A DNA stretch of 64,000 nt from Trichormus sp. M33_DOE_039 (GTDB taxonomy: Bacteria > Cyanobacteriota > Cyanobacteriia > Cyanobacteriales > Nostocaceae). A model generated the notes under the pieces. The model saw nothing but the letters and a program-made list of their open reading frames with translations. It did not search any database and was not told where the DNA came from. The DNA lies in contig DVDT01000050.1 of NCBI GenBank assembly GCA_015296085.1, forward strand, positions 62,001-126,000, written 5' to 3'. Positions 1,029 through 4,496 of this stretch are shown here, in pieces; positions within the stretch are counted from its first letter, which is position 1; every line of letters begins with the position of its first letter. A program made the translations under genes and the position numbers.

Positions 1029-1058
1029 AAATGGGTCAAATCGAAAATTAACAAGATA

Positions 1059-3953
1059 TTATTTTGAGCTAGTTTTTCTTCTGATTGCAGGTTGATCTTG
1101 TGAGTTATTTTCAGTCAGTTCTAGCTGTTTTCTCAAGCTGATAAATTGTAACTCCTCGAATTTTTCTACCCACTCAGGCAAACTGTTTATATTCTTTTGA
1201 TGCCTCTGTTGAGCTAAACTCTGAGACGCTGCCTCTAATCCAGATTTAAGTCTCTGGAAAAGTTGTTCAAAGGTCATTTGCTCAAGGTCAGTAACACCGC
1301 GCTGTTCAGACCTTTTGATATTTTCATTTAGGTCATTTATTGTTTTTTTCTTTTTTCTATCTCCAGGATCTTTTTGATATTTAACTCTTGCAGCAATACC
1401 AAGTGCCAGTTTTGCTGAAGCACCCAAGGCTTTTGCATAAACATCAGCAGATTTGTTACATAGATAAAAAAAGGCAAATCCTGCATTTGAGAGGTAAATC
1501 ATTGCGCTTTCACCATCAAGCATAGGAATTGTGTTATCAGCTAATGCGATCGCGCATAACAACACAGAATATAGAAAGTTCCCATTTCCTCGTTCTGCGA
1601 TCGCCCAGGTATGATAAAACTTTCTATCCCTTGTAGTAAAGGAGGAGTCTCGAAAAAGCTTGATACTTTGGGGAAATTTATCGTTATCAAGATAAAGTTG
1701 AGCCAAATGAGTAAAAAGCCTACGATCTCTTTCTATTTGATAGTCAGAGTTTAAATACAAAACTTCGGCAATCTGAATTGCTACATCAATTCTAGGAGTG
1801 GGTTTAGTATTGGCAAAGTGATTGGGAAAGTCATATTGCCAGTTCACTATTTCTTGTCCTTTTCTGCCGATCACACCGCTACCTACTAATTTTTGAGCAG
1901 ATTTAGCTAATCTAGGATAGATATCATCCTCAAAATTTTTGGAATAAGGTGGACGTGATAAAATTTCGTACGCGGCCTCTGCTATAACTTGCTGGCGCGT
2001 CAAAATCGGTTTATTACCATCATGCAAGATAATTTCATCACCCATTTCTTCTAAAATCTCTGTTCGTAGTTGAGTTGGGTTGTACTGAATTGCCTCTGCT
2101 ATGACTGAATATTTGAGAAAATCAAGTCCTTCTTTGTGCATGGCGACAATACAAACATAGGCATCTAGAACATATTTTGCTCTTGGCTTACCTTGAATAT
2201 CAATGAGTATCCTTTCAACTCGCTCCTTTGCTGTTGTACCTTCACAAATTTGCAACATAGCTGCTAGAAATGCTGCTTTTTCTGATTTTTGTTTTTCCAG
2301 AAGTTCCTGCACAGCATTTTCTTCGCTTTTATTGGCTAATTTTCCTAATTTTTTCCAAGCTTTGACAATCTTCCTGGCTTCGTCTTCTTTCAACTTAGAC
2401 ATGGAAATCTTTGTGCGACGTTGATCCCATGTCAATTCTTCACCATAATTCTGCCAAATAGTATCTCGACAGCAAAATAAAAACTGAATATCTCGACGAG
2501 GTAATGGTTCTGAAAAAAGCTCATGAATTGCTTTAATCAGTTGCCTGGAAGGATTGTCAGCAACTATTAACCATCTCTGATTATTACTAACTTGCGGTAA
2601 CAACATTAAAATGGTTTTCAACTCAGCAATCATCGGATCTTCCCACCAGATAACCCGAAAACTGTAGCTAGACATGACTAAATCACAAATAGCCTGACGC
2701 AGTGCCGTTGATTTACCTTCACACCCAGGGCCAACTAATACTGTCAGCCGCAATCCACGTTCTGGTGGTCTTTTCAATGTATCGATCAAATCACCAACGA
2801 TGTTTCGAGGCGGTATCTCTCCAGAAAGTGCTTCTTCCCAGCCTGGATCTCTGACATCAAAATATCGGGCAATTAAATCTAGAGGAATATTTTGAGCTTT
2901 TTGGGTGAGAAATTTTCGTGTCACCTCAATCCATCCTTCCGGGAGTTGGAGTTCTTGATCGCTAGGTGAAACGATAGGCTGAGGCGATGATGGACGTGGT
3001 GGTGGTGAAATTAATTGAGGTTTATAAGAAGCTATCTTGCGGCGAACTCTTTCTATTGCAGCTTGTACTTCCTCAAATTTTTGCTGATCTAGTCCCCGAA
3101 TTTGGCTAATTTGAACATACAAGTCTTGAGCTTCTTTAAAATCTTCATTCAGTTCAGCTTTCGTAGCACAATCTATTAAATCAGCAATATCTGTGGGAGA
3201 CACACATTGCACTAGAAGAGGTTTATTAGCTTTTTTGACGGGTTCTGTCCGAATTCGGGGAGATTGTTCTACATTTTTATTATCTTGCCGATTCAGTTCA
3301 GGAGTACGCTGTTGCAAGTATTCCTCTAACTTTATCGGTATTGTGTGGCGTTGCAAGCCTTCAACTAAAGCATAAGTAAATGAACCATGCTCTAAGGTGT
3401 TATTCTCATAGGAGAATTGCCCTTGGTCACAAGAAAAAATGGTTGTTATTCCTTGTTCCTTAGCTAGCTTCAAGGTTTGTTCACCAGTTCTAGCACTTAC
3501 ACTTCTCGTATCTAAAGATTCACGACAAGCATCTGTAATTAAAACAATTTCAGCTTTTTTATGTTTTCTCAAAGATGCGATCACTTCATCTATTGGCAAA
3601 GAAAATCTATTTAGGTCTTCTGCGAGAGTATCACAAGCTAGTAAATAGTCACGTCCATCCCTGTTGATGCCATGTCCACCGAAAAAAAACCATAAATTAT
3701 CTGCTTGACCAATTCGACTAGGATCTAACTGTCGTGTTAAATTTTTTAACAGATTAGCACAGTTTGGATAAGTCGGCTTATTCCGATAAGCTTCATCCCC
3801 TAAACATAAAATAACTTTTTGCGGATCAAAGTCGGCATAGTTGCATAAGAAATCACGCATCAATTGAGCGTCGGCGACAGCATACTTTAACTGTTTTTCG
3901 GGGTGGTGTTCATAATTATTAATGCCAATAAGAATCGCCCAATTATTTGCCAT
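1059..3953 (-). CDS. Caspase-like (C14) peptidase fused to a P-loop NTPase
   Basis: This 964-residue protein has an N-terminal caspase/metacaspase-fold peptidase and a C-terminal P-loop ATPase region, an architecture known from bacterial conflict and programmed-death proteins. In the peptidase (about 1-240), 'WAILIGINNY' opens the fold, 'FFFGGHGINRDG' carries the likely catalytic His94 and 'IVLITDACRES' the likely Cys143, so the dyad is intact. A helical linker with a proline-rich hinge ('SPPPRPSSPQP', about 315-330) leads to the ATPase, with Walker A 'GPGCEGKST' (408-416) and a likely Walker B 'RWLIVADNPS' (460-469). The C-terminal ~350 residues are helical and may be a repeat or sensor region. 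The ATG lies inside the 3' end of the upstream small gene (11-bp overlap), so the two are probably translationally coupled. No transmembrane segment is visible. The target is unknown. Confidence 0.85.
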   Translation of the reverse strand: MANNWAILIGINNYEHHPEKQLKYAVADAQLMRDFLCNYADFDPQKVILCLGDEAYRNKPTYPNCANLLKNLTRQLDPSRIGQADNLWFFFGGHGINRDGRDYLLACDTLAEDLNRFSLPIDEVIASLRKHKKAEIVLITDACRESLDTRSVSARTGEQTLKLAKEQGITTIFSCDQGQFSYENNTLEHGSFTYALVEGLQRHTIPIKLEEYLQQRTPELNRQDNKNVEQSPRIRTEPVKKANKPLLVQCVSPTDIADLIDCATKAELNEDFKEAQDLYVQISQIRGLDQQKFEEVQAAIERVRRKIASYKPQLISPPPRPSSPQPIVSPSDQELQLPEGWIEVTRKFLTQKAQNIPLDLIARYFDVRDPGWEEALSGEIPPRNIVGDLIDTLKRPPERGLRLTVLVGPGCEGKSTALRQAICDLVMSSYSFRVIWWEDPMIAELKTILMLLPQVSNNQRWLIVADNPSRQLIKAIHELFSEPLPRRDIQFLFCCRDTIWQNYGEELTWDQRRTKISMSKLKEDEARKIVKAWKKLGKLANKSEENAVQELLEKQKSEKAAFLAAMLQICEGTTAKERVERILIDIQGKPRAKYVLDAYVCIVAMHKEGLDFLKYSVIAEAIQYNPTQLRTEILEEMGDEIILHDGNKPILTRQQVIAEAAYEILSRPPYSKNFEDDIYPRLAKSAQKLVGSGVIGRKGQEIVNWQYDFPNHFANTKPTPRIDVAIQIAEVLYLNSDYQIERDRRLFTHLAQLYLDNDKFPQSIKLFRDSSFTTRDRKFYHTWAIAERGNGNFLYSVLLCAIALADNTIPMLDGESAMIYLSNAGFAFFYLCNKSADVYAKALGASAKLALGIAARVKYQKDPGDRKKKKTINDLNENIKRSEQRGVTDLEQMTFEQLFQRLKSGLEAASQSLAQQRHQKNINSLPEWVEKFEELQFISLRKQLELTENNSQDQPAIRRKTSSK

Positions 3954-4302
3954 TCTGTTTTGATTCTACCCGCTTAAACTTTAGTGTGATTGCGCCTTTT
4001 CCAGTTGCTTTACCACCGGCAACTAGCTTAATTTCACCCTCTCCACCAATCTCAACTAACAACTCTACTTCGTCTAGTTGCATATCTGACTCTGAACCGA
4101 TTTGCTGATCTACTTGTTTGAATAAACGGCCTACGAGTTTCAGAAATTCGTTCATTTTCTGCTCAAGTTCAGAGATGGGTAATTTCACCTCTTTGATTCG
4201 ACCTATTTTTTTGCGTATGTCTTCACCCCAACCACCTCTTTGACCTTCTACGGGTGCAGGCTCAGTATCATCAGTTACAATATAAATGTATTCTTCTGTC
4301 AT
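3943..4302 (-). CDS. Small Trypco1/Pepco-like (peptidase-co-occurring) domain protein
   Basis: This is a ~119-residue protein. The ORF track starts at a TTG (4353); I prefer ATG 4302 ('MTEEYIYIV'), because the upstream 17 residues look non-coding. No convincing Shine-Dalgarno is visible for either. The C-terminal half ('DEVELLVEIGGEGEIKLVAGGKATGKGAITLKFKR') has the alternating, Gly/Ala-rich beta pattern of the small beta-sandwich domains described next to trypsin-like and caspase-like peptidases (trypsin-co-occurring domain 1 / Pepco). The middle is a short helical segment ('ISELEQKMNEFLKLVGRLFKQ'). It overlaps the start of the caspase-ATPase gene by 11 bp, which fits the co-occurrence pattern. 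The domain name is recall plus pattern resemblance, not a database hit. Confidence 0.6.
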   Translation of the reverse strand: MTEEYIYIVTDDTEPAPVEGQRGGWGEDIRKKIGRIKEVKLPISELEQKMNEFLKLVGRLFKQVDQQIGSESDMQLDEVELLVEIGGEGEIKLVAGGKATGKGAITLKFKRVESKQNGK

Positions 4303-4395
4303 GTCACACAAGTTGTGTTGTTTATTTAGGTATATACAAAAATTTAGCGTCAACTTACGAGTTTAAGGGCGCAAATCTTATCTATGGTCAAGTAT

Positions 4396-4473
4396 ATTAT
4401 GTATCAGAATGAGATACTGCTGATGTCATAAATTATGTATCAGAATGAGATACTGCTGATGTCATAAATTATG
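4396..4473. repeat. 36-bp tandem direct repeat containing a palindrome, upstream of the caspase operon
   Basis: Two identical 36-bp units (4396-4431 and 4432-4467) are followed by the first bases of a third. Each unit contains the perfect inverted repeat GTATC-agaatga-GATAC. The array lies about 95 bp upstream of the ATG of the Trypco1-like gene, in the 194-bp gap after the 3' end of crtR, so it sits where an operator for the caspase operon would be expected. Function is inferred from position only. Confidence 0.7.
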
Positions 4474-4496
4474 AATACATCGCCTGACTAAACAGT

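Follow-up and report, generated by a model that had tools for sequence, protein, structure and literature searches.

A Pepco–caspase–STAND gene pair in Trichormus sp. M33_DOE_039 as a probable immune cassette

The gene pair and its products

The window, which is the whole 64,000-nucleotide stretch of DNA analyzed (Trichormus sp. M33_DOE_039, contig DVDT01000050.1, positions 62,001 to 126,000), carries two minus-strand genes between aroH and a desaturase gene. One encodes the small protein Pepco and the other a caspase fused to a STAND NTPase. The main features of the locus are as follows:

1029–4496, no strand: region flanked by aroH (chorismate mutase) and the desaturase gene, which holds the cassette and has other genes in congeners
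3943–4302, minus strand: Pepco small protein, 119 aa (PF24393, 103.4 bits, residues 6–111)
1059–3953, minus strand: caspase, TPR-like linker, nSTAND5 NTPase, and helical C-terminus, 964 aa (ORF, Pfam, AlphaFold2 model)
3243–3944, minus strand: Peptidase_C14 caspase domain, residues 4–237 (84.8 bits; PDB profile and Foldseek matches)
3672–3674 (His94) and 3525–3527 (Cys143), minus strand: catalytic residues of Peptidase_C14, with a D-x-C motif that includes D141
3027–3221, minus strand: TPR-like helical linker, residues 245–309, a shared C-terminal flank (three helices, pLDDT about 90)
2433–2867, minus strand: nSTAND_NTPase5 domain, residues 363–507 (PF25199, 111.2 bits)
2706–2732, minus strand: Walker A GPGCEGKST, residues 408–416
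1119–2396, minus strand: α-helical C-terminal region, residues about 520–945 (AlphaFold2 helices throughout)
4396–4467, plus strand: two exact tandem 36-bp repeats (4396–4431 and 4432–4467), each with GTATC-N7-GATAC

The Pepco gene comes first (4302–3943) and shares 11 bp with the caspase-NTPase gene (3953–1059). The original prediction had described two overlapping ORFs of this kind, and their coordinates, strand, and overlap were recovered as claimed. The ATG start of Pepco gives 119 aa, and an alternative TTG start is also open at 4353.

The small protein had been called Trypco1/Pepco-like. The Pepco part of this assignment stands, as the Pfam profile is exceeded clearly (103.4 bits vs a cut-off of 27) and covered at positions 1–112 of 112, whereas the Trypco1 part falls, with PF19493 reaching 19.7 bits and staying below its cut-off of 24.6. 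The small protein is therefore matched by a peptidase-associated domain, and the matches to PF24393, Peptidase_C14, and nSTAND5 together bear out the earlier family call of a peptidase-co-occurring small protein beside a caspase-STAND protein. The predicted fold of Pepco consists of a strand, a long helix, and three strands (β-α-β3; model pLDDT 72), with a predicted-disordered loop at residues 14–32 (pLDDT < 50), instead of the β-sandwich that had been proposed. The best-predicted element is a 29-residue helix. No structural relative of Pepco was found in the PDB at E ≤ 0.001, a PDB profile search gave neither a relative nor an adaptor fold match, and the literature search found no paper naming Pepco as a protein domain. 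Inspection by eye, without statistics, shows a single arginine in the pre-helix loop of several Trypco1 proteins too (loci L178–L203; DDRIG, SKRPG), and some of the Trypco1 genes are flanked by caspase genes.

The caspase domain belongs to Peptidase C14 (orthocaspase), with a score of 84.8 bits and the H94 and C143 dyad. Its nearest solved structures in Foldseek and PDB profile searches are metacaspases and MALT1. These share the nearest fold and profile with the window's domain at about 14–21% identity in fold alignments, and the window differs from them by its bacterial STAND fusion. The His94/Cys143 dyad had been predicted, and both residues fall in nearly invariant columns in an alignment of 52 partner proteins; D28 and D141 are nearly invariant too. 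The predicted P-loop GPGCEGKST was likewise located at residues 408–416, inside the nSTAND5 domain, which scores 111.2 bits vs a Pfam cut-off of 34 with the Walker A included. The PADLOC caspase model covers only the N-terminal part of the protein. In the AlphaFold2 model, the caspase and linker (residues 1–310) are mostly above pLDDT 90 and the remainder is lower, with low confidence for the NTPase and C-terminus. Residues about 520–945 have no Pfam match above cut-off. The C-terminus is modeled as all helical, its best pLDDT being 74–84 around residues 720–790, and on this model it is presumed to serve the STAND module as its superhelical sensor part. No phage relatives of the caspase protein were found.

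Distribution, pairing, and insertion site

Sampling of the order gave Pepco in 42 of 196 genomes and sampling of the phylum in 33 of 291, which is a patchy distribution. The pairing of the two genes was surveyed at 60 Pepco loci from the order-wide sample. A co-directional C14 gene lies downstream of Pepco at 48 of the 60 loci, two of which have caspase fragments only, and in 39 of those 48 the gap between the genes is −11 to +18 nt. This is the conserved adjacency in relatives that had been predicted. At one further locus C14 is replaced by CHAT-GUN4, and several of the loci that lack C14 are broken or lie at contig ends. Eight extra Pepco loci have C14 directly downstream in six cases, within 245 nt. 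The linker at residues 245–309 is also found in most Pepco-linked caspases. The Pepco gene precedes the caspase gene, overlapping or abutting it, in nearly all cyanobacterial loci, and the order is reversed on the Sinorhizobium plasmid pSymA (Alphaproteobacteria), where caspase-FGE comes first and Pepco (82 bits) follows. The identity matrices of Pepco and caspase are correlated (r = 0.54, with a maximum of 0.36 in 2000 permutations), for which shared descent may be partly responsible. Divergent Pepco proteins were also seen next to caspase-iHD-CE proteins about 1500 aa long at loci L093:1911-6803, L094, and L095. The protein of L093 has wHTH-HSP90-associated repeats, and that of L095 showed no caspase domain ahead of iHD-CE.

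The same pair is part of a CBASS operon on the Oscillatoria nigro-viridis plasmid pOSC7112.01:

L112:2119-5698 (pOSC7112.01): plasmid CBASS operon with Pepco, caspase-SAVED, and DncV-like CD-NTase

C14-SAVED begins 1 nt after Pepco (104 bits) and precedes the DncV-like CD-NTase with AGS_C, and a ThiF gene lies next to the operon on the opposite strand. The arrangement of Pepco, C14, and linker is the same as in the window, and the TPR-like linker is common to both caspases. In contrast, the window has the STAND NTPase for SAVED and no adjacent CD-NTase. A CBASS assignment of the window was rejected, as its neighbors are aroH and the desaturase gene and include no CD-NTase. SAVED is a cyclic-nucleotide sensor in CBASS. 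Its location at the C-terminus of a Pepco-linked caspase indicates that the sensor is the variable C-terminus and the effector is Pepco together with the caspase; by analogy, this layout may be carried over from the CBASS pair to the window. A tblastn search with Pepco against plasmids gave no match, and the plasmid copies were recovered by a profile search of caspase neighbors; plain tblastn is thus too weak for Pepco.

The gene order of aroH, desaturase, and pyk is retained without the Pepco–caspase pair in 11 of 12 congeners. The aroH–desaturase interval in congeners spans 0.9–4.2 kb and has other genes inside. Judged from this gene order, the site is a variable one, and the cassette represents a strain-specific insertion there. 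By eye, the intervals of the 11 congeners (L135–L146) contain a PIN toxin-antitoxin-like pair, a Crp-type regulator, a short-chain dehydrogenase, a methyltransferase, and an MFS transporter.

Exchange of the C-terminal module

In relatives, the caspase and linker are followed by FGE-sulfatase, GUN4, a receiver domain (REC), or iHD-CE, and on pOSC7112.01 by SAVED. The C-terminal types show no relation to the caspase tree and do not cluster on it: the FGE label takes 15 changes vs a shuffled mean of 15.9, and the GUN4 label takes 14 vs 13.5 in shuffles. The nearest caspases to that of the window share 62% and 55% identity; the former ends in FGE and the latter has no known terminal domain. Like the other pairs of Pepco PF24393 and Peptidase_C14, the window has a small protein with a full-length profile match adjoining a caspase-fold peptidase, but within the survey nSTAND5 is found on the window's Pepco-linked caspase only. 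Across genomes, the nSTAND5 Pfam model gives many weak P-loop matches in all controls, and low scores were not used.

In a scan of the GTDB genome collection, the window's STAND module was found only in Anabaena catenula and Nostoc CHAB 5844. Among 391 genomes of the order there is only one other copy, which is CHAT-linked, and in genome G323 the module likewise comes after CHAT. The A. catenula match defines the following block:

1107–3022, minus strand: swapped block shared with Anabaena catenula (blastn, 1916 bp, 88% DNA identity)

In A. catenula, the block sits behind a C14 domain other than that of the window (73 bits with caspase_w_EACC1, which is below cut-off), and the gene ahead of the C14-STAND gene encodes 127 aa that include a hydrophobic segment. 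This layout is EACC1-like, and no EACC1 profile match was obtained at the locus. The module of Nostoc CHAB 5844 shares 67% DNA and 50% protein identity and is preceded by CHAT. Three peptidase types, namely the window's C14, the A. catenula C14, and CHAT, carry the same STAND module. The swapped block starts right behind the linker, which places the joint in the proline-rich spacer. For the housekeeping gene pyk, identity is 82% with both A. catenula and the Nostoc species; the A. catenula block at 88% is closer than this single background gene, as lateral exchange predicts. The STAND sensor end is apparently exchanged wholesale between systems, and Pepco is the constant partner of the peptidase.

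EACC1-caspase systems comprise a small 5′ constant protein and a caspase with a highly variable C-terminus (PMC7159879). The window has the same two-gene layout with a variable caspase C-terminus; however, EACC1 sits in the membrane through one TM helix, whereas Pepco looks soluble and belongs to a different family. The window was not assigned to EACC1-caspase, as caspase_w_EACC1 (NCBIfam) reaches 54 bits, below the cut-off of 140, and the partner is Pepco.

Two further observations concern these C-termini. At L100:713-4189 and L102, in two genomes, a caspase and alpha/beta-hydrolase-like gene lies directly upstream of CHAT-nSTAND5, the domain being assigned by eye. GUN4-ended, Pepco-linked caspases (L046:3792-3909, L053, L061, L065, L073, and L088) have a hypervariable G/T-rich stretch after the GHLP codons. 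The 3′ end beyond this stretch is conserved (CTCTTCTCTCGCGCAGAGACTTGTAAAGTGTAACATATAAG) and has the short hairpin CTCT-CGCGC-AGAG inside. A search of 196 genomes gave its 20-bp core in 14, often as multiple copies, and reversed controls gave 0. The variable stretch resembles a retroelement variable region, but its base bias differs from the usual adenine pattern.

Candidate cleavage site, proposed mechanism, and upstream repeat

The disordered loop of Pepco contains a conserved motif:

4237–4245, minus strand: G20-Q21-R22 of Pepco, the conserved G-x-[K/R] in loop 14–32, candidate cleavage site

One loop column is K or R in 48 of 49 occupied Pepco sequences and G is found two positions earlier in 47 of 52, while the columns around them are variable. 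The motif occurs in 44 of 55 loops (shuffled mean 18, maximum 31), and together with a following G, D, or S in 32 of 55 (shuffles 6, maximum 14); these figures are not a formal probability because the Pepco sequences are related. The Oscillatoria loop reads GQR and the Sinorhizobium loop GAR. In MALT1 and metacaspases, acidic residues at the D28/D141-equivalent positions form the S1 pocket. Orthocaspases (C14B class) cleave after the basic residues K and R (PMC6426788). Pepco is therefore proposed as a substrate, as its loop motif is conserved, orthocaspases cut after K/R, and D28 and D141 are nearly invariant. It may be the caspase's own substrate, cut after K/R, or the conserved K/R could instead serve in binding and not be cut. 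The cutting of the dedicated partner CRISPR-T by CRISPR-Lon is a precedent (PMC9704534). The CRISPR-Lon/CRISPR-T (CalpL) system shares with the window a sensor-gated protease and a dedicated partner, which is cut in the case of CRISPR-T and a candidate substrate in the case of Pepco, but both its Lon protease and its partner are unrelated to those of the window.

The two-gene Pepco–caspase cassette is probably immune, a reading drawn from the CBASS operon with the same pair, the occurrence of its STAND module in CHAT and EACC1-like layouts as well, and the strain-specific insertion. For the full mechanism, the balance tips slightly towards a STAND-gated caspase conflict module with Pepco as its substrate or regulator. 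The caspase protein would be an Arg/Lys-specific clan CD peptidase that is restrained by the STAND NTPase and helical sensor at its own C-terminus. On an invasion signal, the NTPase would oligomerize, which would gather and activate the caspase domains. Pepco would bind the caspase as its constant partner, most likely as cognate substrate or regulator, and would be cut after the conserved loop K/R, either relieving inhibition or releasing an active fragment. Host damage or dormancy would follow downstream and provide phage defense. In a broader form that is put forward tentatively, Pepco would be the dedicated proteolytic switch of a large caspase (perhaps CHAT) immune class, cut at one G-x-K/R by an Arg/Lys-specific caspase, with STAND, SAVED, GUN4, FGE/C-lectin, and receiver sensors interchangeable and Trypco1 as the trypsin counterpart.

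It is rather unlikely that Pepco is instead an uncleaved antitoxin-like inhibitor or chaperone that silences the co-translated caspase, the K/R being a substrate-mimic contact with the active site. The Pepco-first overlapping or abutting genes, the correlated similarity of the two proteins, and the single basic residue in a flexible loop would suit such a role, but the caspase comes first in Sinorhizobium and a pure inhibitor leaves the G/D/S preference after K/R unexplained. Another unlikely role is that of an adaptor or scaffold, in which a long-helix oligomer of Pepco clusters the caspase, the loop docks, and other host proteins are cut. The well-predicted helix argues for this, as does the published view that the EAD and EACC proteins of related systems act as adaptors or constant components (PMC7159879). 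Against it, Pepco has no adaptor fold match, and one conserved basic residue in an otherwise variable loop is not obviously needed by a pure adaptor. A protease of stress or photosynthesis signaling rather than immunity, with GUN4, FGE, or receiver ends reporting the metabolic state, is similarly doubtful. Relatives do carry GUN4 and receiver C-termini, FGE and GUN4 partners would fit signaling roles outside immunity too, and GUN4 has been proposed as a tetrapyrrole sensor (PMC7159879). However, the STAND, SAVED-CBASS, CHAT, and iHD-CE partners, the patchiness, and an insertion missing in congeners are typical of conflict systems.

Few natural substrates of orthocaspases are known, and the G-x-K/R of Pepco narrows the substrate proposal to one residue. 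The proposal also bears on what small co-occurring proteins do next to caspases in bacteria. From the module swaps, a single protease output can apparently be coupled to many kinds of sensor, among them cyclic-nucleotide (CBASS) and NLR-like STAND sensors. Such sensor swapping would be a bacterial parallel to the wiring of the apoptosome and inflammasome.

The two perfect 36-bp repeats with GTATC-N7-GATAC that had been noted in the presumed promoter are exact tandem copies 94–165 bp upstream of the Pepco ATG, and shuffled sequence yields no such repeat. A conserved operator or promoter element, as the palindrome might have been, is not borne out: the repeat is locus-specific, being absent from all other Pepco loci and occurring once in the genome, at this locus. 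GTATC-N7-GATAC is not enriched genome-wide either (4 sites vs 3 for the reversed control). An operator controlling the pair would agree with exact tandem copies at this distance from the start codon, but is quite improbable given this isolation and the lack of enrichment, and a recent tandem duplication suffices as explanation. NtcA sites have the spacing GTA-N8-TAC. The palindrome reads GTA-N11-TAC, which is the wrong spacing, and it is also unconserved, so an NtcA site was rejected. The repeat is treated as a local tandem duplication with a possible operator function.
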